64,000 nucleotides of DNA from Armatimonadota bacterium (GTDB lineage: Bacteria; Armatimonadota; Zipacnadia; Zipacnadales; JABUFB01), in assembly GCA_013314775.1 (NCBI GenBank), contig JABUFB010000010.1, forward strand, positions 372,001 through 436,000, read 5' to 3'. Below the pieces are notes generated by a model. The model was given only the letters and a program-made list of their open reading frames with translations. It searched no databases and was not told the origin of the DNA. Positions 1,047-13,300 of this stretch are shown here, one piece after another; positions within the stretch are counted from its first letter, which is position 1, and every line of letters begins with the position of its first letter. The translations under genes were made by a program, and so were the position numbers.

Positions 1047-4000
1047 CTACCCCTCCGTCACCTCGATGCCAACCGGCTTCGCATCCGACCGGTTCTCTGG
1101 ATTGTAGTACTCATACACCGTGCTCTTGGGCGCTTGGGCCTTGAGCGGGTACCGGGCCTGCAGGGTGTAGCTGAAGTCCAGCTTCTGCCGCCCCTCGACG
1201 GTCTCCAGGTAGACGATGACTTGTCGCCCCGTGAGGTTGAAGCGGTCGATCTTCTTCGAACCCACCAGTTCGGCAAAGTCCCCTGCGTCCACGGTGAACC
1301 CCGGCGGGATGCCCAGGTCGACCACAACCATCCCCAGCTTCGCGGGGGTGTTGTTGCTTACCGTCACCTTCGCGGTGACAGTGTCGTCTTTGGCAAGCCG
1401 GGTCTTGTCATACTGCACGTCGATGGACAGGGCTTCCGTCTTGGGCTTTTCGGCCGCCTTCCAGGGCATGTAGTATCGCCCAACCACCTGGTAAAGCGAG
1501 CTTCCCTGCCCGGCGAAGTCGATTCGCACCTTGTTCGCACCGGGCTTCACGAACTGCCGGCAGTCGATGGCGCGCATGACATCCGCGTCTTCGGGGGTGA
1601 TCGCAAAGGCGGCTGCACGCTCGCCATTCACGGTGATGGTGATCTCCGCATTGGTATCCCGGGTGGTGGCTTCCTTCTGGGCCATGACCAGGGCGCGCAG
1701 GGCAAAAATCGTGGCATTCGTCGAGAACCAGGTCCCGCGCGGGTCCTTGTTGGCGACCAGATAGTTCAGCACCCTGGAGGCTTCCATTGAGTGGTGCCCG
1801 CCCCGCAGGAGGGCCAGCGCCGCCATTCCCGTGGCCTCCAGGTCCGCACTCCTGCCGGTGCTGTTGGTGACGCCGCCGATGGAGGACTCCCACCACATCT
1901 GATCGCCGTCGGTTTTCGCCATCCCAACAAGGGTCTTCAGAACTTCCAGCGTGGTCCCGGTCAACTCGCCGTTGCCCCTGATGCTGTCGGCACCGACAAG
2001 TGCATTCGCCACAATCGCCAGGGTATAGGGATCCTTCGCCTGCTTCCAGTTCTCCCGCACGTAGTCAGCGCTGGTGTTGACCCGTGGGTCCTTGCACTGG
2101 CTGTGGGTGAGACCCCACACGATATACGCTGTGGGAAGGAGCTTGTCCACCTGCACCTTGGCCCAGGTTTCGGCGTGGCAGTAGCCCTCCTCGGCTTCGT
2201 AAACGCCGTCTTTCGCCTGATCCAGCAGCCAGTTCTGGGTGCGCCGGATGATGTCGGGGTCTACCGTGTGAACGGCGGACATGTCGTGGAACTCCATGAG
2301 TCCGTAGGCCGTGAGAAGTCGGTTGGCTGGGGCATTCCCAAACCACGAGAACCCGCCTCCGGGCACCTCGTACGACAGCATGCGCTGGTAACCGGTGTTG
2401 ATGAACCCCTCGGCCTTCATCTGGATCTCCGGCGTGCTCTGCCGCGTGGCCTTCATGTAGTCCAGGACCATGATGTTCGGCCAGGTCACCGACGAGGTCT
2501 GCTCGAAGCACCCGAAGGGCATCTGCAGGATGCTGTCCAGCCCCTCCACGGCCTGCGAGAAGACGCCGGGATACACCTTCACCATGAGGCTCGAGGCGTC
2601 AGCGATCGCGCCCTCCGGGATTTCGATGACCTCCTCCACCGTACCCGAGAGACGCCCGCCTTCGGTGGCTTCGAATTCTTTGCCGTCGGGCAGCACCTCA
2701 ATGCTGCGCTTGATAGCGTCGCTCATCTTCGACCCGTAGGCATGCACCGTGAGCGGGTGATGGCCGATCTTTTTCACCGTGAGAGTGAAGTACCGGACAT
2801 TCACCTCGTTCGCAGCGATTTCAAGGCTCTGGGTGGCCTCGCCATCCAGTTCGAACCAGTCGCCCTCAGCAAGCTGCAGGCGCACCGTCTGGGTTTCGGG
2901 CAGGTAATTGTAGACAGCGATGGGTATCGACACCTGGTCGTTCTGGGTGAGGGCCACAGGAAGGTCGATGTCCACGAAGAAATCCTGGAAGCACCGCAGT
3001 CCCTTCGTTGTGGAGCCCAGCTTGCCCAGGGCGCTGTTGGCGATTGCCGCCAGCCGCCAGGTGGTGATGGAGTCGGCCATGGGGAAGGTCAGCGTGGCCT
3101 TCCCGTTCTCGTCGGTGATGAGGGAGGGCTCGAAGTAGAGGGTCTCCGGGAAGTACTCACGCACCCGCACGGGCTTCTCCACGCCGCCCGCGTCACTTGT
3201 GGGGACGGCCTCGGCAACCCCGCCCTTTGCGATACCCCCGTCCAGCGCCATCGCCATCCCCGGCATGCCCGCAGCAGGCGCTGCGAAGACAATGTCCCCT
3301 CCGAAGCCGCCCCGCAACCGCCACATCTTGCTGCCCTCCACGGCGGCGTCTCGATTCTTGAACCACTGACCGGGCTGGGCGGTGCTCAGGAACAGGTCGT
3401 CCAAGGTATCGAACTTGCCGTCCGGCCCTGCGCTGATAACCACCGCGGCTTTCTGCCAGCCGCCTTCTGTGATGATCTCCACCTTCACCGGGTTCTTCCA
3501 CAGATCCAGCAGTTCATCTGCCTTGACCAGCCCGAGCTTGACAAGTTCCGGCCCGGCATTTGCAGGCTCCTTGAGCTTGCGGTCGCCCAGCTTGCCCAAG
3601 GCTTCCGCCAGCTTCTCCAGCTTCGGGCGCATCCCCTCCGCCCAGCTTTCGCGGGCCTTCACCAGGCGGCGATTGAAGGTGCTCTCGAGGATCATCTCGG
3701 GCGTGGGCACGTCAGCGCCTGCGAACAGCACCCTTGCTGCCTGCTGAGGGGCGGCTTGCAGTTCGTCCACCGGCTCCTTCGTGATGAGCGTGGGCATCTC
3801 GAAGCCGTGGATTTCATACCGGGGCGTCATCAGCTCCTGTTCAAGGTAGAAGAAGACCTTCTCCATTCCCGGCTGAAGCTCTTGCAGGGCGAAGACGCTC
3901 TCGTCCACCACGTTGATCCCGAGAGCCGCCGCCACCGGCCTGCCGTTCTCATCCACCACCGAGAAAGCCAGCTTCGCCTCCTGTCCGGGCACGTAGCTGT

Positions 4001-5762
4001 CGCGGTCGGGCTCGACGCCGATCTGCAGGTCGCCTGCGGGCTGCACGAACACCGGGCGGGTGTCCCGGATGATCTGCCCATCGCCGGAGATTCGATACGC
4101 GCTCACATAGCAGGTCCCGCTGAGCTCAGGCGACAGGCGCATGGAGACCTGGGCTCGGCCGTCGCGGATTTCTCCGGCGTAGGTCAGCATGGTCTGCCGG
4201 TCCTTCACGAGGTCGAAGTACACGGTTCCTGTTGCCGCCCCGCACAGAGCCGTGGCATTGAGCGGGTCGCCCACACTGGCCAGCGGCCTGTCCACCCGAA
4301 GCAGCAGGTTCTCCGCGCCACCCGGGCGAGTGGGCAACTCGATGGTGCGCTTCGCCAGGGTGCCGTCAGCCAGACGGCCCGCGACCTCGATCACAACCGG
4401 CATGGCAGGCGGGGCATCGGGCTCATCCATGCCCCACCTCTGCATCATCCCCGCGGGGGCCTTCGGCATCTCTGGGATCAGGTCCGCAGGAACCGCGAGG
4501 GTGATTTCCGCAATGCCCAGCGCGTCGGTCCCGTAGTCCGTCTGATTCAGAGGAATGGTCTTGTCGCCGCATCTCGCGCTGAGCACCCGGATGGTGCCTT
4601 CAACCGGCTCCCCGGTGGGGCGCGAGGTGAGCACGTAGACGATGTTGTCTACACCCGCAACGATGGTCCCCGCTTCGGGTACCGCATTGATGTTCAGGTG
4701 CCCCGCCGCCACGGTGGAGGTGTGGATGACCTTCTCCGCATGCTCGGCCTGGTCGGTGACCTGCACATCAAGCTCCAGGAACGCCTGGCCATGCTCCAGC
4801 GGCTGGCCCACGAAATGTGTGGGCAGGCGGGTCTCGAACTCGAAGGTCCCGTTCTCGTCGGTCTTGCCCTCAACGCGGCCCACTTCGGTGAATTCCACGT
4901 CGAAAGTCTTCACACTCAAGGCCACCCGGCCGCCACTCACGGGCTTGCCGAAGAAGTAGTCCGCCTGCACCTTCCCCGTCACCGTGTCGCCCGGCAGGTA
5001 GTACTGTCGGTCGGTGGATACAGTGACCTTGAACTTCGGCAGCACGTACTTCTTCACCGTGACGGTCTTGGTCGCCTCATCTTCGCCAAGGATCGCGCGA
5101 ATACTGAAGGCGCCCATGTTCACCTGGTCGGCAAGCTGGAAGTCCGCCGAACAGATGCCGAAATCATTGGTCTTTTCGGTCTTCTTGAAAACCTTGTTGC
5201 CCTTGGCATCGGACACTTCCAGAGTCATGTCCCGGCCCGCCGCCGCGCTGAGACCCGGCCTGCGCAGGGCAAGCGCGCGCAGGTGGATCACTTGCCCGGG
5301 CTGGTAGATGGGTTTGTCTGTATTCAGCAGGATCTGGCAGGACCGCTTGAGCCGGATCGTCTGCTCCGTGCTGTCCTGCATGCCCCGAGCGCGGGCCGAG
5401 ACCTTGAGAGTGTAGTCGCCGGGTTCCAGGTCCGGGACATCGAAGGTCGCGTTCAGCGTACCCAATGCATTTGTCTTTCCGGCGTACAGGCGCCGAGAGG
5501 TGCCTTCCGCGTCAGCCAGTGCGATCTCCACATCCGCGCCCCGAACCGGCTCTTGCTCGCGGTAATCATTGACCACGACGCGCACCGCCCCGGTGCTCCC
5601 GCCCAGCCACTCCCGCGCCGCCACCAGTTCAATGCCGATTGGGCTGAGCGGGTCGTCCTGTCCAACAGCCGTGTGCCCCTGCCACACGGTGACCACCGTC
5701 CCCAGAAACAAGGTGAGTACCGTCCAGTGAGTCAGTCTGTACCGGCGAATGCTGGCGATCAT
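1047..5762 (-). CDS. Alpha-2-macroglobulin family thioester protein, secreted, 1571 aa
   Basis: Predicted envelope protease inhibitor that traps peptidases through a bait region and a reactive thioester. Residues 1-35 look like a signal peptide. MG-type domains follow, including the TDKPIYQPGQ segment near 148. A Gly/Ala-rich stretch near 815-860 is a plausible bait region, and REYFPETLYFEP opens the A2M domain. The thioester motif GCFEQ has its Cys at residue 1085, inside an alpha/alpha helical domain of about 300 residues, with a receptor-binding-like C-terminus. Residues about 750-790 (LLDLWKNP through SAGPDGKFDTLDD) resemble the C-terminal calcium-binding part of type II secretion pseudopilin GspG. 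GGAGGGC lies 6-7 bases before the ATG. No pbpC-like partner is adjacent. Confidence 0.92.
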   Translation of the reverse strand: MIASIRRYRLTHWTVLTLFLGTVVTVWQGHTAVGQDDPLSPIGIELVAAREWLGGSTGAVRVVVNDYREQEPVRGADVEIALADAEGTSRRLYAGKTNALGTLNATFDVPDLEPGDYTLKVSARARGMQDSTEQTIRLKRSCQILLNTDKPIYQPGQVIHLRALALRRPGLSAAAGRDMTLEVSDAKGNKVFKKTEKTNDFGICSADFQLADQVNMGAFSIRAILGEDEATKTVTVKKYVLPKFKVTVSTDRQYYLPGDTVTGKVQADYFFGKPVSGGRVALSVKTFDVEFTEVGRVEGKTDENGTFEFETRLPTHFVGQPLEHGQAFLELDVQVTDQAEHAEKVIHTSTVAAGHLNINAVPEAGTIVAGVDNIVYVLTSRPTGEPVEGTIRVLSARCGDKTIPLNQTDYGTDALGIAEITLAVPADLIPEMPKAPAGMMQRWGMDEPDAPPAMPVVIEVAGRLADGTLAKRTIELPTRPGGAENLLLRVDRPLASVGDPLNATALCGAATGTVYFDLVKDRQTMLTYAGEIRDGRAQVSMRLSPELSGTCYVSAYRISGDGQIIRDTRPVFVQPAGDLQIGVEPDRDSYVPGQEAKLAFSVVDENGRPVAAALGINVVDESVFALQELQPGMEKVFFYLEQELMTPRYEIHGFEMPTLITKEPVDELQAAPQQAARVLFAGADVPTPEMILESTFNRRLVKARESWAEGMRPKLEKLAEALGKLGDRKLKEPANAGPELVKLGLVKADELLDLWKNPVKVEIITEGGWQKAAVVISAGPDGKFDTLDDLFLSTAQPGQWFKNRDAAVEGSKMWRLRGGFGGDIVFAAPAAGMPGMAMALDGGIAKGGVAEAVPTSDAGGVEKPVRVREYFPETLYFEPSLITDENGKATLTFPMADSITTWRLAAIANSALGKLGSTTKGLRCFQDFFVDIDLPVALTQNDQVSIPIAVYNYLPETQTVRLQLAEGDWFELDGEATQSLEIAANEVNVRYFTLTVKKIGHHPLTVHAYGSKMSDAIKRSIEVLPDGKEFEATEGGRLSGTVEEVIEIPEGAIADASSLMVKVYPGVFSQAVEGLDSILQMPFGCFEQTSSVTWPNIMVLDYMKATRQSTPEIQMKAEGFINTGYQRMLSYEVPGGGFSWFGNAPANRLLTAYGLMEFHDMSAVHTVDPDIIRRTQNWLLDQAKDGVYEAEEGYCHAETWAKVQVDKLLPTAYIVWGLTHSQCKDPRVNTSADYVRENWKQAKDPYTLAIVANALVGADSIRGNGELTGTTLEVLKTLVGMAKTDGDQMWWESSIGGVTNSTGRSADLEATGMAALALLRGGHHSMEASRVLNYLVANKDPRGTWFSTNATIFALRALVMAQKEATTRDTNAEITITVNGERAAAFAITPEDADVMRAIDCRQFVKPGANKVRIDFAGQGSSLYQVVGRYYMPWKAAEKPKTEALSIDVQYDKTRLAKDDTVTAKVTVSNNTPAKLGMVVVDLGIPPGFTVDAGDFAELVGSKKIDRFNLTGRQVIVYLETVEGRQKLDFSYTLQARYPLKAQAPKSTVYEYYNPENRSDAKPVGIEVTEG

Positions 5763-5968: not shown

Positions 5969-6985
5969 ATGAAAGCAGCGCTCTTCACGGCACCCTTCGA
6001 GATCGAGGTGCGTGAGGTACCCGACCCGGTGATCGCGTCCCACGAGGTGCTGATCCAGGTGGCGGCATGCGGCATTTGCGGTACCGACTTGAAGATCGAA
6101 TCCGGCGGTTACGATGCCCTCTACCCCGTGATCGCCGGGCACGAACTCAGCGGTACCCTTCTTGAGGTCGGCGCGGATGTGACACATCTCAAAGCCGGCG
6201 ATCCCGTAGCTGTCAACCCGAACAATCCCTGCCGGCGCTGCCGCTATTGCTACCGGGGCCTTTTCCACCTGTGCACCAGCCCCACCGCCTGCGGCGTCAC
6301 GTATGACGGCGGCTTCGCGCAACTGTGCAAGGTCTCCGCTCAGCTTGCGTTGCCGGTCTCTGATGCCCTGCCACTCAACCTGTGGGCCATGATGGAGCCG
6401 GTGTCCTGCTGCCTGCACGGGATCGACGTGGCCGAGATACGCCCCGGCGACAGCGTGGTTATTCTTGGAGCGGGAAGCATCGGCAACATTCTCGCTCAAC
6501 TGGCCCGCAACAGCGGTGCGGCCCGGGTCATCGTGAGCGAGCCGCGTGAGGAGAAGCGCGAACTGGCCCTTGCACTGGCGGCCGATGACGCGCTGGACCC
6601 GGTGGCTCTCGGGGATGGCCTGACCGAAGCGGTCCATGATCTCACTGGAGGGGGCGCGGACGTGGTCATCGAGGCGGCGGGCATTCCGGCGACCGCGCTG
6701 TCCGCGATTCCACTGGCCCGGCGCGGGGGCACCATCCTCTTCTTCGGCGTCTGCCCGCAGGACCTGGAAGTACCGGTGCAGCCGTACAGCATTTTCCACC
6801 ACGAACTGAACATCAGGGGCGCGTACACTAACCCGCTCACCGACACCCGGGCGATTGCTCTCCTCGAATCGCGCCGTGTGCAGGTGGCACCACTCATCAG
6901 CCACCAGTACACGCTTGACGAGGTCGCCGAGGGCCTGAAAGCCGTGCGCGCCGGGGAGACAGTGAAGGCGCAGGTGATCCCGTGA
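5969..6985 (+). CDS. Zinc-dependent alcohol dehydrogenase (sorbitol/threonine dehydrogenase type)
   Basis: A 338-residue medium-chain dehydrogenase expected to oxidise a sugar alcohol or similar secondary alcohol with NAD(P). The catalytic zinc ligands are visible as Cys37 (CGICGTD), His58-Glu59 (GHE) and Glu143. The structural zinc lobe has Cys88, 91, 94 and 102. The Rossmann motif GAGSIG is at 167-172. The ATG follows GGAGG by eight bases. It is the first gene of a three-gene operon: its stop overlaps the next start by four bases, linking it to a UROD-like protein and a secreted beta-helix protein. Substrate unknown; neighbours suggest carbohydrate catabolism. Confidence 0.9.
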   Translation: MKAALFTAPFEIEVREVPDPVIASHEVLIQVAACGICGTDLKIESGGYDALYPVIAGHELSGTLLEVGADVTHLKAGDPVAVNPNNPCRRCRYCYRGLFHLCTSPTACGVTYDGGFAQLCKVSAQLALPVSDALPLNLWAMMEPVSCCLHGIDVAEIRPGDSVVILGAGSIGNILAQLARNSGAARVIVSEPREEKRELALALAADDALDPVALGDGLTEAVHDLTGGGADVVIEAAGIPATALSAIPLARRGGTILFFGVCPQDLEVPVQPYSIFHHELNIRGAYTNPLTDTRAIALLESRRVQVAPLISHQYTLDEVAEGLKAVRAGETVKAQVIP

Positions 6986-8211
6986 CCGTCCAGCCTCCTG
7001 CTGCACCCATGACCCACCGGGAGCGCATGCTGGCCGCATTCCGGCGCGAACCGGTAGATCGCATCCCCTGGGTGCCCCGTCTGGACCTGTGGTTCAAGTC
7101 AAACCGTACCCGGGGCACGCTGCCGACCGAATGGCGCGACGCCACCCTGCGAGACATCGTGCGCGATCTTGGCGTGGGATGCCACGCGGCGATCCCTGAT
7201 TTTCTGGACACCGAACACCCGGAGGAGGCGTGTGACCGGGTCCTGGGGCTGGACCACGTGCCCAACCAGCCATACCGCCTGCGGTTCCGACGGACGCGGC
7301 GCCAGGTGATCCACGAGGGCGAGAAGATCCGGATCATCTACAACACCCCGGCGGGAGAGCTTTCCGGCGTGCTGCTCTACACTGACCAGATGCGGCGCGA
7401 CGGCGTGACGCTCATGCACGTTCACGAGCGGGTGGTCAAATCGCTCGACGACTATCGGGTGCTGGCGGCACTGTTCGAGGATATCGAGATCGAGCCTGAC
7501 CAGTCGCGATACCAGCGATTCCGCGCAAGCATCGGCGACGACGGAATTGCCGTTGCATTCGGTAACGTTGCTGCCTCGCCGGTGCACCATCTGCTGAAGG
7601 AACTCGTGCCGTATGACCGCTTCTACTACGACCTCCATGACCGCCCCGACCTGATTCTCGACTGCGCCAAGGCGATGGAGCCCTGCTTCGACGCCGCTTT
7701 GAATGCCTGTTGCATGAGTGATGCGGATCTGGTGATGTTCGGCGCAAACTACGACGTGAGCATGACGCCGCCGTGGCTGTTCGAAGAGCACATACTGCCA
7801 CAGTTGAAACGCTGGTCCGACTCACTGCACGCCCACGGGAAGCTCCTGGCAACTCATACGGACGGGGAGAACGACGGCCTGTGCCACCTCTACCGGCAGG
7901 CCGGGGTGGATGTGGCCGATTCTGTCTGCCCTCACCCGATGACCCGGCTGTCTCTCGCGGACTGCCACGCGCGGATGGGCAACTCGGTGGCGATCTGGGG
8001 CGGCATATGCTCCGTGAGCGTCCTGCCGGGCAGCTTCACCGAGGTACAGTTCGAGGATCATATCAACGCAGCACTCGATGCCTTCCCCGACGGATGCGGG
8101 ATCGTCTACAGTATCGCCGACACCACGCCTCCGGACGCAAGCCTGGACCGCATCCGGCGCATCGGCGAGATCATCGGCGCGCAACAACCCATGCGAGGTA
8201 ACCCACCATGA
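6982..8211 (+). CDS. Uroporphyrinogen-decarboxylase-family (UROD-like) protein
   Basis: A 409-residue TIM-barrel protein of the UROD/MtaA superfamily, starting at a GTG that overlaps the previous stop (GTGA). The opening TxRERMLAAFRREPVDRIPW is the usual N-terminal signature of this group, and HTDGEND near residue 291 is in the place of the HxCG/HSDG metal or cofactor loop. True HemE is unlikely, because this branch is paired with sugar dehydrogenases and lacks heme genes nearby. Superfamily relatives transfer methyl groups between corrinoids and thiols, but nothing here fixes the substrate. It overlaps the next gene by four bases. Confidence 0.85.
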   Translation: MTVQPPAAPMTHRERMLAAFRREPVDRIPWVPRLDLWFKSNRTRGTLPTEWRDATLRDIVRDLGVGCHAAIPDFLDTEHPEEACDRVLGLDHVPNQPYRLRFRRTRRQVIHEGEKIRIIYNTPAGELSGVLLYTDQMRRDGVTLMHVHERVVKSLDDYRVLAALFEDIEIEPDQSRYQRFRASIGDDGIAVAFGNVAASPVHHLLKELVPYDRFYYDLHDRPDLILDCAKAMEPCFDAALNACCMSDADLVMFGANYDVSMTPPWLFEEHILPQLKRWSDSLHAHGKLLATHTDGENDGLCHLYRQAGVDVADSVCPHPMTRLSLADCHARMGNSVAIWGGICSVSVLPGSFTEVQFEDHINAALDAFPDGCGIVYSIADTTPPDASLDRIRRIGEIIGAQQPMRGNPP

Positions 8212-10637
8212 CAGTCATCCAGATCGCGCTGACAGCCGCGGTGACATTGCTTCTCGCGAACGCAAGCGTCGGCGCCGACACAGTGTTCTACGTCTCGCAG
8301 GCTGGGAATGACGGGTGGAGCGGGAGCATCCCCACACCCGCGGCCAATGAAGCCGACGGTCCACTGCGCACCCTCGAAGGCGCGCGCAATGCCGTCCGGG
8401 TACTGAAGGCCGCCGGCAATGGCCTGCCCGGCCCGGTGACGATCCGCATTCAGGCCGGCGACTGGTTCCTGGCCGAACCCCTGCGCCTGACGCCGGAGGA
8501 CTCCGGCACGCAGGAAGCCCCGATCACGTGGACCACATACGGTGAGGGCGCGACAGTTCTCACTGGCGGACAGGTCATCACGGACTGGGAGGATGCAGGC
8601 GATGGAGTCTGGCAGGCGCAGATACCCGAGGTGCAGAGGGGCGAGTGGACCTTCCGCCAGCTTTTCGTGCGTCGCCCGGGCGAGACTCACTTCCTGCGAC
8701 GTTACCGGCCATCCAAAGGCGCTCTGATCATCGCCGGTCTCACGAACGCGCCGGCGCGCGAGGGCATGGGGCACCGGCGCTCCCAGGATGAGTTCATGTA
8801 TGTGCCCGGTGACCTCGAACCCTGGGAGAACCTGGAGGACGTGGAGATCGTGGCCCTGCACGACTGGTCCTCCTCGCGCCTGCGCATCCGCGAACTGGAC
8901 ACCGAAAACCACATCGTGCGCTTCACCGGCTTCCCGGTCTACCGCATCGGGCACTGGTGGAAAGGCGGGCGCAACCCGTACTACGCCGAGAACGTGAAGG
9001 AGCAATTCGCGAACCCCGGCGAGTGGTACCTGGACCGGCCGACGGGGGTGCTGTCATACCGCCCGGTGGAGGGCGAGGATATGGCGACCCTCACGGTGGT
9101 GGCTCCCCGCACGGACCAACTCGTGATCCTCCAGGGCGACGCGGAGATGGGTCTGAGTGTTGACCACGTGCGCTTCCGGGGCATCACCTTCGCCCACACC
9201 CACTGGTCCCTGCCCGATCAAGGGTACAGCTCCGGTCAGGGCATGACCGATCTCCCCGCGGCTTTCCAGGCTCGGGTGGCGACCCATTGTGCGGTGGAGG
9301 ACTGCACTTTCGCGCATCTCGGGGCATACGCGGTGGATTTCGGCGGCGGGTGCTCGAACAACCGGATCGCGGGCAACCGAATGTTCGACCTGGGCGGCGG
9401 CGGGGTCAAGATCGGGGGCGCAGGACCAACTCCCACCGGTAATGTGGTGGAGAACAACGTGATCTCCGATGGCGGCCTGGTGCACTTTTCAGCCCACGGT
9501 ATCTGGGCGGGCATCACCGACGGCACGGTGATCCGCCACAACATCGTGCGTCGCTTCCTGTACTCGAATATCTCGGTGGGATGGGCGTGGCATGAGAACC
9601 CCACCCCGTGCAAGAATAATGTAATCGAGGCCAATCACATCCACGATTCCATGATGCTCCTCGCCGACGGCGGGGCCATCTACACACTGGGGTTCATGCC
9701 CGGGAATGTCATCCGGGGGAACCATATCCACGACGTGCACCGGAGCAAGTTCGCGGGCAGCGCCCCGAACAATGGCATGTTCTTCGACCAGGGCAGCAAG
9801 GGCTTCCTGGTAGAGCGCAATGTGATCTATCGCACGTCCGGGAACCCGATCCGACACAACCAGAACAGCGCCGACTGGCACACGTGGGTAGATAACAGCT
9901 TCGGAGTGCTGCCCGATGATCCGGCATTCCCAGCGGAGATCGCACAAGCGGCCGGGCTTGAGCCCCCATACGCCCACTTGGACGCCGAGGCGATCCCCGT
10001 CTCCCCCACGCCGATCCTGTCCATGACCTTGCCCCCGCCGCCCCCGCCGGGACCGATTGTGGACACATCGGAGCCCAACGTGCCCACCCCTGTGCCCGAG
10101 AAGCGCGCCATCCAGGGCGCAGACGAGCATGTTCACATTCGCGTGACCGATGAGACTGCCGCCGAAGGACGCTTCAGCTTGAAGTTCACCGACGGTCCGA
10201 AGAACGCCAAGCCCTTCTACCCGTACCTGATCTACTCCCCCACCTTCGACAAGGGGCGGGTGACGGTGAGCTTCGCGGTCCGCCCCGGCGGGGGTGCGAA
10301 CATTGGGATCGAGGGCCGGACGTACAAAGGGGGCACGTTCTTCAGCGGGCCACTGGTCACCATTGGGCCTGACGGGACACTGAAGGCCGCCGAACAGACG
10401 CTGGTTAGGCTGCCCCTGGATGAGTGGTCCCGCGTCGAGATCAAGTTCGGTCTGGGCGAGCTCGCAGGCGAGGGCTTCTCAGTGCGGGTCACGCTGCCGG
10501 ACGGGAAAGAGTCAGCCGCGCAGGCGGTGCCCATGAAAGACGAACGCTTCCAGGTTCTGGACTGGTTCGCCTTCCTGTCACACACCACGGTAGATGCAGT
10601 ATTCTACCTGGACGACGTACGCCTCGAGAACAAGTGA
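8208..10637 (+). CDS. Secreted right-handed parallel beta-helix protein with C-terminal jelly-roll-like domain
   Basis: An 809-residue exported protein with a signal peptide ending near ASVGA (about residue 24), followed by the DTVFYVSQAGNDGWSG opening seen in many polysaccharide-binding or lyase-like beta-helices. Repeated N-rich coils (NNRIAGNRMFDLGGGGVKIGG, GNVVENNVISDGG and similar) fill about residues 320-560. A proline-rich linker (about 605-630) leads to a roughly 180-residue beta-sandwich-like C-terminal domain. Likely binds or cleaves a polysaccharide outside the cell. It is the last gene of the operon with the dehydrogenase and UROD-like genes, and it ends 11 bases from a convergent beta-helix gene. 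Confidence 0.88.
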   Translation: MTVIQIALTAAVTLLLANASVGADTVFYVSQAGNDGWSGSIPTPAANEADGPLRTLEGARNAVRVLKAAGNGLPGPVTIRIQAGDWFLAEPLRLTPEDSGTQEAPITWTTYGEGATVLTGGQVITDWEDAGDGVWQAQIPEVQRGEWTFRQLFVRRPGETHFLRRYRPSKGALIIAGLTNAPAREGMGHRRSQDEFMYVPGDLEPWENLEDVEIVALHDWSSSRLRIRELDTENHIVRFTGFPVYRIGHWWKGGRNPYYAENVKEQFANPGEWYLDRPTGVLSYRPVEGEDMATLTVVAPRTDQLVILQGDAEMGLSVDHVRFRGITFAHTHWSLPDQGYSSGQGMTDLPAAFQARVATHCAVEDCTFAHLGAYAVDFGGGCSNNRIAGNRMFDLGGGGVKIGGAGPTPTGNVVENNVISDGGLVHFSAHGIWAGITDGTVIRHNIVRRFLYSNISVGWAWHENPTPCKNNVIEANHIHDSMMLLADGGAIYTLGFMPGNVIRGNHIHDVHRSKFAGSAPNNGMFFDQGSKGFLVERNVIYRTSGNPIRHNQNSADWHTWVDNSFGVLPDDPAFPAEIAQAAGLEPPYAHLDAEAIPVSPTPILSMTLPPPPPPGPIVDTSEPNVPTPVPEKRAIQGADEHVHIRVTDETAAEGRFSLKFTDGPKNAKPFYPYLIYSPTFDKGRVTVSFAVRPGGGANIGIEGRTYKGGTFFSGPLVTIGPDGTLKAAEQTLVRLPLDEWSRVEIKFGLGELAGEGFSVRVTLPDGKESAAQAVPMKDERFQVLDWFAFLSHTTVDAVFYLDDVRLENK

Positions 10638-10648
10638 GGGCGGCAACC

Positions 10649-13300
10649 TCACGGCTTCGCGCCTGACAGGACGCGCAGATTGTCCCAGCGCAGGAGGGCC
10701 ACCGGGTCTGTCGAGGGCGATCCTTCGGGCACGATGGCCTTTGCACTGATCACCACCGAGAGGGGCTTGCCCACTGCCGGGTCCTGGCCCTCAGGTCCGG
10801 TGCGGAAGCGCAGGACGCGGGTGTTCCAGTGCACGGTGCCTCCAGGCGCGATCCTGACCTCGATTGCAGAGCCGAGGCGGTCCCGCTCATCTCCGGTGGC
10901 AAGGTAGATTTCCCCCAGTGCGCCGCAGTCCGGGACAAGCGACAGACCGTGCATCTCGCAGAGCACCACGTACTCGGTATCCGGCTGCACCACGCCGATC
11001 TCCTGGTACGCCGTCTGGGGTGCTGTATGCCCTTTGGTCAAGTTCGCGCAGGCCACGCCGGTGTATGTATGCAGCGCCCCGACGGCAATCCATGGCCCGC
11101 CCTGTTCACCCGGCTTCGCGAAGGGCTTGTCGAAGCCCGGATCCTCCGAGATCGGCTCCGGACGCACCTGCCAGTCCAGTTCGCCCGGGGACTCCGGCTC
11201 GCCGGTCTTCCGGAAGTGAGGATATTCCCGTGTTGCTCGCCAAAGCTCGTTGATCCCCGGCGTCCCAGGCCCGCAGGTGTCCAGGTTCACCGGGGGCACG
11301 CTACCCGGAATAGGGGGCAGGCGATAGTGTCCGCCGTGGGCATCTTCGAACATCGCCGGCATCCCCTCGCGGGGGGCCTTCGACAGCAGCGTCCTCGCCC
11401 ACGCGCGCGACCTGATCTCCGTCCCGTCGCATGGGATGCACGTCTGCTGCAGTTCCAGCGGGATCTCAACTCCCTTCCCGCGCAACGGGCTGTCGGGCTT
11501 CAGCCGGTAATCCCCGGCCGCCGCGTTCACGAACCCGCCGTCATCCAGCACCTGCTCCGGGGGCAATGCCACCCAGTGCCTGTCGCCCAGCATGATGCGC
11601 CGCAGCTTGGGATCGACGGTTAGCGAGTGGGTATCGCAGTGGCGTTCCATGCGCCAGATCGCCAGCTTCCCGTAGAAGCTGTCCCAGCCGCGCATGAACC
11701 TGAAATGGTTGCCCGTGCGGTGGTAGTACGGGAGGGTCCACACGAACACGTTGTAGTCCGACCAGTTGCCCCAGCTATGCCCGTTGTCCTCAGTAATGCC
11801 AAGAAAGGAACCGGGGCAGTCCACGAGGATATTGTTGAGCACCTGGACATTGCGGACAGGCATGAGCGCGTACTCGCCGGGCTCCCTCACGCTCTGGTTG
11901 TAGTTGCACACGCGGGGCATGCCCGTGACCGTGATGCCCTCTCCGCAGCCTTCCAGGACATTGTGGGCCACCAGTGCATCCGAGCTGTAGATCCAGATTG
12001 CCCGGCCGCAGCGCCGGAAGGTGTTGTTGACGATGACACCCCAGCGGCTGATCTCGAAGTACACACCCACGGCGCAGTCCTCAAAGAGGTTGTCGGCGAC
12101 CAGCACATTGTTCACGTTGATGTCCATCCACAGGGCGGCTTCGTCTTCGTGGTGGAAATAGTTTCCAATAAAGCGGCTGTCGCGCCACATCACCCACTTG
12201 TTCCCCGCCGACAGGCAGACCACGTCCCCGCGCCAGGCGTTGTGGTGGAACTCGTTGTCCTCCACCAGCATGCGAAAGCCCCAGTTGCTTACCATTCCGC
12301 ACATACCGTTGTAGGCGATCTCGCAGTTGCGGATGGTGCAATCCTCCCCCGAGACGATGAGGCCAAGGAAGTCGTTATGGGTGATGCGACAGGATTCCAC
12401 GATGCACCGGTTGCCGGAGACATTCATCGCCTGTTCCCGGGGCCACATGCCATCCTTGATGTGCCGCACGTCCAGGCCGCTCACAGTCCAGGTGCCCCTG
12501 AGGTCGATTCCCACGTCCCGAACCGCAACCTCGACTGTCCTGCCTTCCGGGCTGGCGCCGTCGGGCAGCCAGACGTAAAGACGCTTCGCCTCGTTGTCGT
12601 AGTAGAAGGACCCGGCGCGCATATCGTCCAGGCCCTTGCCCACCCACTCGCGCACATAACGGAATCCCGTGGCTTTCTCGGCCCGGAGAGGACTGCCCTG
12701 GAGGCCGATCTGCTGCAGAGGCTCTTCATCCACGAACACCATCTGCGCGTAAGTGTCCAGCGGGCACGCGAACACCCCGCGGTGACCATCCGCGGGGGCC
12801 GGGAGTGCTGCGCCGTTGCGGACCACCACCGGCTCCCAGGGCCCTGCGATGATCTCCGAGCCCTTGATGATCGGCCGGCTGCCCGGTTCAGCGGCAAGAG
12901 TGCAGCGGATGTCCGTGTCCTGCCACGGCTCCGGTTTCCAGACCACCGACTCCCGGTACGTGCCATTGCCCACGAAGACGCTGTCGCCCGGCTGGAGCTT
13001 CCCAACCGCCGCCGAGATCGTCTTCAGCGGAGCCGCCAGACTGCCGGGATTGTCGTCCGAGGCGTTCGGCGCGCTCTGGCTGACGTGGTACACGGCGCTG
13101 AAGCCCGGCATGCACAGGAGAAGCAGGACTGCCACCGAGAGGCAGGGAACTGTCACGGAGGTCACCACCGTGGGTCGAGGATTGCCCGGCCTGCATTGTG
13201 GCCAGACCCTTCGCCGGCGTGCAGGGCCAGTCCTGCCTGCGCCGTGCACCCGGGTTCGAGACAAGCGCCGCTCCGCTAGTAAGACCAAGCGGGCGTTCAC
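10649..13300 (-). CDS. Secreted right-handed parallel beta-helix protein (DUF1565-like)
   Basis: Up to 883 residues. The longest frame begins with GTG at 13300, but the first 44 residues are Arg-rich and unlike a leader. A good signal peptide (VTVPCLSVAVLLLLC..GFSA) begins near GTG codons at 13168, 13165 or 13156, so the true start is probably there, leaving a normal divergent spacer. After it come YHVSQSAPNASDDNPGSLAAPLKTI (a DUF1565-type opening) and helical coils rich in Asn (NCEIAYNGMCG, EDNEFHHNAW, VADNLFEDCAVG). The last 200 residues form a separate domain without recognised motifs. Probable extracellular polysaccharide binding or cleavage. Confidence 0.85.
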   Translation of the reverse strand: MNARLVLLAERRLSRTRVHGAGRTGPARRRRVWPQCRPGNPRPTVVTSVTVPCLSVAVLLLLCMPGFSAVYHVSQSAPNASDDNPGSLAAPLKTISAAVGKLQPGDSVFVGNGTYRESVVWKPEPWQDTDIRCTLAAEPGSRPIIKGSEIIAGPWEPVVVRNGAALPAPADGHRGVFACPLDTYAQMVFVDEEPLQQIGLQGSPLRAEKATGFRYVREWVGKGLDDMRAGSFYYDNEAKRLYVWLPDGASPEGRTVEVAVRDVGIDLRGTWTVSGLDVRHIKDGMWPREQAMNVSGNRCIVESCRITHNDFLGLIVSGEDCTIRNCEIAYNGMCGMVSNWGFRMLVEDNEFHHNAWRGDVVCLSAGNKWVMWRDSRFIGNYFHHEDEAALWMDINVNNVLVADNLFEDCAVGVYFEISRWGVIVNNTFRRCGRAIWIYSSDALVAHNVLEGCGEGITVTGMPRVCNYNQSVREPGEYALMPVRNVQVLNNILVDCPGSFLGITEDNGHSWGNWSDYNVFVWTLPYYHRTGNHFRFMRGWDSFYGKLAIWRMERHCDTHSLTVDPKLRRIMLGDRHWVALPPEQVLDDGGFVNAAAGDYRLKPDSPLRGKGVEIPLELQQTCIPCDGTEIRSRAWARTLLSKAPREGMPAMFEDAHGGHYRLPPIPGSVPPVNLDTCGPGTPGINELWRATREYPHFRKTGEPESPGELDWQVRPEPISEDPGFDKPFAKPGEQGGPWIAVGALHTYTGVACANLTKGHTAPQTAYQEIGVVQPDTEYVVLCEMHGLSLVPDCGALGEIYLATGDERDRLGSAIEVRIAPGGTVHWNTRVLRFRTGPEGQDPAVGKPLSVVISAKAIVPEGSPSTDPVALLRWDNLRVLSGAKP

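Follow-up and report, generated by a model that had tools for sequence, protein, structure and literature searches.

A bacterial thioester macroglobulin with a pseudopilin-type domain in its bait slot, and relatives with a candidate selenocysteine at the thioester

The window analysed here is the whole 64,000-nucleotide (nt) stretch of an Armatimonadota bacterium (contig JABUFB010000010.1, positions 372,001 to 436,000), and on its minus strand, at 1047-5762, lies one intact open reading frame (ORF) of 1571 codons that encodes a thioester macroglobulin of 1571 amino acids (aa). By sequence comparison, the protein is a member of a large bacterial family spread across many phyla, and the slot within its sixth macroglobulin (MG) domain is filled by what reads as a GspG-type pseudopilin domain. 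More surprising than the window gene itself are those relatives in which the codon of the thioester cysteine is TGA and very probably encodes selenocysteine (Sec).

All Pfam matches of the window protein lay above the curated cut-offs (TED_complement 3.2e-43, MG2 1.4e-27, A2M 2.6e-22, A2M_recep 3.2e-14, A2M_BRD 1.2e-10 and MG3 3e-10), in the order MG2-MG3-BRD-A2M-TED-A2M_recep, and no ANATO domain was matched in it. The thioester motif GCFEQ is intact at residues 1084-1088 (Cys1085), DLWKNP stands at 753-758 and SAGPDGKFDTLDD, which begins SAGPDG, at 777-789. This is the only protein with PF00207 encoded in the genome, and a same-genus genome carries a macroglobulin homologue of 94% identity, so the window gene is not an assembly artefact. 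Its features, in window coordinates, are as follows.

1047-5762, minus strand: complete gene of the thioester macroglobulin, 1571 aa (ORF and Pfam)
5658-5762, minus strand: signal-peptide-like N-terminal stretch, residues 1-35 (basic, hydrophobic, AVGQ), with no lipobox cysteine seen (reading of the sequence)
5067-5330, minus strand: MG2, residues 145-232, with TDKPIYQPGQ (PF01835, 1.4e-27)
3843-4301, minus strand: MG5 with the first portion of MG6, residues 488-640, VVDESVFALQE...YEIH lying near its end (PF07703, 1.2e-10; structure model)
3354-3680, minus strand: putative pseudopilin domain of GspG/T2SSG-like type, residues 695-803, filling the bait/ANATO slot (family profiles, structure model)
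3396-3434, minus strand: calcium-loop motif SAGPDGKFDTLDD, residues 777-789, with D781, T786 and D789 (sequence; 3G20 ligands D117, T122, D125)
3177-3353, minus strand: Gly/Ala/Met-rich disordered linker, residues 804-862, the presumed bait (protease trigger; model confidence and divergence)
2871-3143, minus strand: A2M domain, residues 874-964, beginning directly after VREYFPETLYFEP (PF00207, 2.6e-22)
1686-2564, minus strand: thioester domain (TED), residues 1067-1359 (PF07678, 3.2e-43)
2499-2513, minus strand: thioester motif GCFEQ, residues 1084-1088 (sequence; 36 relatives have TGA as the codon of this Cys)
2175-2177, minus strand: His1196, in the alignment column of the CD109/C3 catalytic His, where human A2M has Asn
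1086-1334, minus strand: C-terminal domain of A2M receptor-binding type, residues 1477-1559 (PF07677, 3.2e-14)

Searched as a single sequence, the insert segment of the window protein had no meaningful match in Pfam, NCBIfam or PDB. Among the aligned relatives, PF08334 (T2SSG) matched the inserts of 19 of the 23 (best 9.4e-10), the family in second place matching just two, and a profile built from the 23 inserts found solved GspG structures in a PDB search at 4.5e-11 to 1.9e-5, one of these matches (3g20) spanning profile positions 40-129 of 136. Most relatives show the pattern DPWG...SxGPDGxxxTxDD in the same slot, and the AlphaFold2 (AF2) model of the window insert (predicted local distance difference test, pLDDT, 79) has a long helix, DPWG and three strands in that order. 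The top PDB match of this model in Foldseek was the GspG of enterohaemorrhagic Escherichia coli (3g20_B; probability 0.90, template modelling score 0.44-0.49, E-value 0.16). In 3G20 the Ca2+ site is formed by D117, T122 and D125 of PGPDGVPNTEDD (PMC3396595), and AGPDGKFDTLDD of the window protein keeps all three ligand positions as D781, T786 and D789. No transmembrane stretch was predicted in the window slot. On these matches we read residues ~695-803 as the soluble domain of GspG-type pseudopilins and not as part of an MG domain.

The initial annotation had described the same ORF at the same positions (a 1571-aa protein with an intact thioester, GCFEQ, Cys1085) and had noticed in it a pseudopilin-like insertion, which is borne out by the T2SSG matches of 19 of 23 relatives, the family-profile match to GspG (4.5e-11) and the first rank of GspG in Foldseek. 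The calcium loop does lie at about residues 750-790, although the similarity is not limited to this C-terminal loop, the whole soluble domain apparently being present. Likewise, the Gly/Ala-rich presumed bait is found downstream (linker 804-862), but the insertion occupies the bait/ANATO slot itself and not a place near the bait. A literature search found no publication linking a macroglobulin with a pseudopilin, in agreement with the remark that no A2M with such an insertion had been described.

The insert sits between the two halves of MG6, with VVDESVFALQE...YEIH upstream and VREYFPETLYFEP downstream, and this slot is the site of the bait region in A2M and of the ANATO domain in C3. In the AF2 model of residues 486-965, both the MG domains and the insert are folded and a stretch at ~803-861 is disordered (linker pLDDT 28-50); the overall fold of this model matches C3, C4, CD109 and A2M. 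No other part of the mature protein diverges as fast as the linker (804-862), whose identity to the same-genus homologue is 0.76, compared with 0.86 for the pseudopilin domain and 0.95-0.97 for MG6b, TED and the C-terminus, a divergence that looks bait-like. Elsewhere in the family the slot has other contents. It holds 6-9 predicted transmembrane stretches at loci L038, L042, L063, L064, L069, L070, L071 and L072, an unusual content for a protein presumed to be secreted, a CarboxypepD_reg domain at L054 (protein 959-1038, Pfam; L043 and L053 are similar by sequence reading), and two or more tandem T2SSG-like units at L037, L039 and L041 (read from sequence). The MG6 bait/anaphylatoxin slot is an exchangeable cassette site in bacteria, taking up a pseudopilin domain, a carboxypeptidase-regulatory-like domain or a multi-helix membrane stretch.

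A scan of genome contigs for relatives gave 75 loci (34-94% identity), in Armatimonadota, Zipacnadia, Hydrogenedentota, WOR-3, Omnitrophota, Planctomycetota, Verrucomicrobiota, Acidobacteriota and others; no viral relatives of the macroglobulin were found. When the core was searched against PDB with phmmer, human A2M scored 157 bits and CD109 153, as against 18.7 for E. coli YfhM. In a FastTree phylogeny (518 columns, 80 sequences; the eukaryotes are two human sequences, A2M and CD109, and the root is arbitrary), a branch with support 0.995 sets the family and human A2M/CD109 apart from a group made up of YfhM and 19 further bacterial A2Ms, the support for the family itself being 0.987. The domains of YfhM are bMG1, A2M_bMG2, bMG3, bMG5, bMG6 and bMG10. 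The PbpC domain BiPBP_C was absent from the genome in a domain search that detected the E. coli positive control, and no pbpC is adjacent, the flanking genes encoding a DNA methylase and a zinc dehydrogenase. The scores, the grouping with human A2M/CD109 outside ordinary bacterial A2M and the absence of BiPBP_C uphold what had been proposed at the outset, namely that the protein is nearer to animal thioester-containing proteins (TEP) and A2M than to the PbpC-linked bacterial type. "Eukaryote-like" is a statement of similarity, with no direction of descent or transfer implied. A bacterial clade nearer to animal complement and A2M than the well-studied YfhM type bears on the origin of complement. 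A second, distant bacterial A2M type (L183-L199; GC[VAT]EQ, MG2, TED, bMG10) coexists with members of the family, in related genomes as well as in Uabimicrobium.

His1196, located 111 residues after Cys1085, aligns with the catalytic His of CD109, and human A2M has Asn there. In C3-type proteins, the catalytic His steers acyl transfer and lies ~110-116 residues after the Cys. The His of the thioester domain determines thioester binding specificity (PMC2935394), and His1196, as judged from the alignment, favours C3/CD109-like chemistry. The most likely function of the window protein, and in our judgement a probable one, is that of a covalent trap or opsonin that is secreted and set off by a protease. 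A foreign protease would cut the Gly/Ala/Met linker, the MG ring would rearrange and the Cys1085-Gln1088 thioester would become exposed; with His1196 assisting acyl transfer, the protein could then attach covalently to the protease or to a nearby surface. The pseudopilin domain would most likely position the cleavable linker, as a cap or recognition module stabilised by Ca2+. Because it is embedded inside a macroglobulin, it could not enter the usual pseudopilus assembly.

Several points weigh against this interpretation. The Foldseek match of the insert draws its support from rank and probability and not from its E-value, and the model of residues 486-965 has a predicted template modelling score of 0.43, at which the placement of domains is unreliable. 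The slot does not always hold a pseudopilin domain across the family, and as its content varies, that domain is not essential to the family mechanism. The column of the catalytic His is H in 56 of the 93 Cys-type sequences, not in all. Across 55 loci, the only genes that recur in the neighbourhood encode a zinc dehydrogenase (4 related), a sigma-factor-like protein (5) and one family-limited protein. Finally, secretion, the cutting of the linker, covalent capture and the role of the pseudopilin domain are proposed on the basis of sequence and models.

Among the other explanations, an A2M-like protease trap in which the pseudopilin domain is itself the bait, i.e., the preferred protease substrate, is unlikely: the domain occupies the bait slot, diverges faster than the core within the genus (0.86 vs 0.95-0.97) and belongs to a type whose folding depends on Ca2+ (PMC6692295), but the adjoining linker is disordered and diverges faster still, a folded Ca2+-stabilised domain would be a poor protease substrate, and the catalytic His fits C3/CD109-like and not A2M-like chemistry. 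Residues 777-789 could also be taken for only a short calcium-loop insertion of the PERCAL type (GxDGxx[GN][TN]xDD), with no pseudopilin domain around it. Such loops are known as insertions in other extracellular proteins of bacteria; they occur as short insertions within bacterial domains of the animal-peroxidase type, part of their definition came from the pseudopilin 3G20 (PMC3396595), and the window segment by itself has no Pfam match; however, the homology covers helix, DPWG strand and loop, PF08334 is found in 19 of 23 relatives, the 3g20 match reaches over profile positions 40-129 of 136, and the AF2 fold combines a long helix with three strands and has GspG as its top match. We rejected this very improbable explanation because the similarity spans the entire domain.

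A reading of the protein as a PbpC-linked bacterial type I A2M of the ordinary kind, acting in periplasmic defence, finds some agreement in the shared superfamily, the signal-peptide-like N-terminus and the CxEQ thioester, yet the core reaches 157 bits with human A2M and only 18.7 with YfhM, the genome lacks BiPBP_C, bMG1, bMG5, bMG6 and bMG10 are replaced by domains of MG3 and A2M_recep types, and the tree places the family on a separate branch, which makes such an assignment extremely improbable. The greater similarity of the core to human A2M/CD109 than to YfhM could be explained by a gain of the family from animals through horizontal transfer. This seems quite unlikely, as relatives of 34-57% identity occur across many bacterial phyla and the two human sequences, which are the whole eukaryotic sampling, form a single side branch; the reverse direction or shared ancient descent would fit equally well.

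While the thioester codon of the window gene encodes Cys, 36 relatives in a tree of 129 sequences, mostly from planctomycetes, have TGA in its place (G[TGA]FEQ), and none has TAA or TAG there. A single TGA, placed exactly at the codon of the thioester Cys, interrupts the ORF at L072 (Candidatus Uabimicrobium amorphum), in both tandem copies at L041 and at L039. The sites are as follows.

L072:11478-11480: TGA at the thioester codon
L041:3897-3899 and 10579-10581: TGA at the thioester codon, tandem copies
L039:5446-5448: TGA at the thioester codon
L034, L052, L091-L094, L097, L098, L100, L101, L103-L105, L111, L113, L118, L121-L139: further TGA loci

In 294 genomes of the phylum of L039, 33 TGA hits were found, spread over 24 genomes; every hit had one TGA, and none had TAA or TAG. 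Codon-level checks put the number of distinct sites at 28 for TGA and 73 for TGC/TGT. In the phylum of L041, just 2 of the 193 genomes have the TGA form, and no Sec forms were seen among 61 genomes related to that of the window. The number of Sec/Cys state changes on the 129-sequence tree is at least 14, compared with 31.6 for shuffled labels. The genes at L041:3-5336 and 6688-12021 are adjacent tandem Sec-type macroglobulin genes of one deltaproteobacterial metagenome-assembled genome.

An Rfam scan of the TGA loci gave no match to a selenocysteine insertion sequence (SECIS) family, and the SECIS was therefore assessed by comparison with the Cys homologues. For this purpose, the 41 nt that begin 15 nt downstream of the codon were folded and compared with shuffles. 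The mean z was -2.82 for the 28 TGA genes and -0.26 for the 73 Cys homologues with the same motif (Mann-Whitney p 5e-10), and compensatory changes in two stem registers amounted to 0.571 (0.183 shuffled) and 0.328 (0.082 shuffled); the groups for covariation were picked after the folds had been seen, whereas the comparison of TGA with Cys folds is an independent test. A tRNA-Sec with TCA anticodon was present in all three TGA genomes tested, SelA in 22 of the 24 TGA genomes of the phylum of L039 and SelB in each of the five TGA genomes searched for it, among them the two without SelA. SelA is also common in the remaining planctomycete genomes, so that its presence is a necessary condition that does not discriminate. 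The genome of the window also has tRNA-Sec (L080), SelA (L087) and SelB (G000:C19:33206-34297), and its single macroglobulin uses Cys.

We rejected a pseudogene stop or a reassigned code as explanations of the TGA, since it occurs once per gene, at the same codon wherever this was checked, is never replaced by TAA or TAG and is followed by a hairpin that is absent from the Cys homologues. It is very probable, from the sequence evidence, that many bacteria, chiefly planctomycetes, have swapped the thioester Cys for Sec, and that the acyl trap of these proteins is an internal Sec-Gln selenoester. A selenoester is a better acyl donor with a faster leaving group than a thioester, and in the Sec relatives capture could become faster at the price of lower stability. 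If true, selenium would have a non-redox role in these macroglobulins, nature would offer an example of a selenoester protein, and a comparison of Sec with Cys members of one family would put the chemistry of thioester immunity directly to the test. Macroglobulins are not mentioned in the selenoproteome literature that we searched, and a search for selenocysteine together with macroglobulin found no relevant report.

The neighbours of the window gene are ordinary (1-860 on the minus strand and 5969-10637 on the plus strand), encoding a DNA methylase, a zinc dehydrogenase, a URO-D family protein and a beta-helix protein, with no partner gene evident among them. In the wider comparison, a sigma-factor-like gene lies near or upstream of the A2M gene at L042, L056, L057, L059 and L070, mostly in Omnitrophota, and the remaining clusters of neighbouring frames resemble reading frames antisense to the macroglobulin gene.

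Compared with known systems, the window protein shares MG2, MG3, A2M, TED, A2M_recep and CxEQ with animal TEP/A2M proteins (CD109, A2M, A2ML1, C3/C4/C5, insect TEP1), as well as a C3/CD109-type His, a REYFPET motif and a hypervariable/bait slot in MG6, but it is bacterial, has a low overall identity to them and carries in its slot a GspG-type domain and a linker; where C3-type complement has ANATO, it has the T2SSG-like domain. With bacterial type I A2M (YfhM/ECAM, Salmonella SaA2M; PbpC-linked, PMC5764988) it has the superfamily, the thioester motif and a presumed secretion in common, yet it is without bMG1, bMG6, bMG10 and PbpC, scores 18.7 bits in the core and stands on a separate branch. 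The major pseudopilins GspG, PulG and EpsG (T2SSG, PF08334; 3G20) have the helix, the DPWG strand and the GPDGxxxTxDD Ca2+ loop with its ligand residues in common with the window domain, which, unlike them, has no visible N-terminal transmembrane helix or prepilin peptidase site and is embedded within a macroglobulin. The TGA relatives resemble bacterial selenoproteins with Cys homologues in the in-frame TGA at a conserved Cys, the SECIS-like hairpin downstream and the tRNA-Sec/SelA/SelB machinery, but they are not redox proteins, and Sec would stand for the Cys that forms the acyl bond of the thioester.
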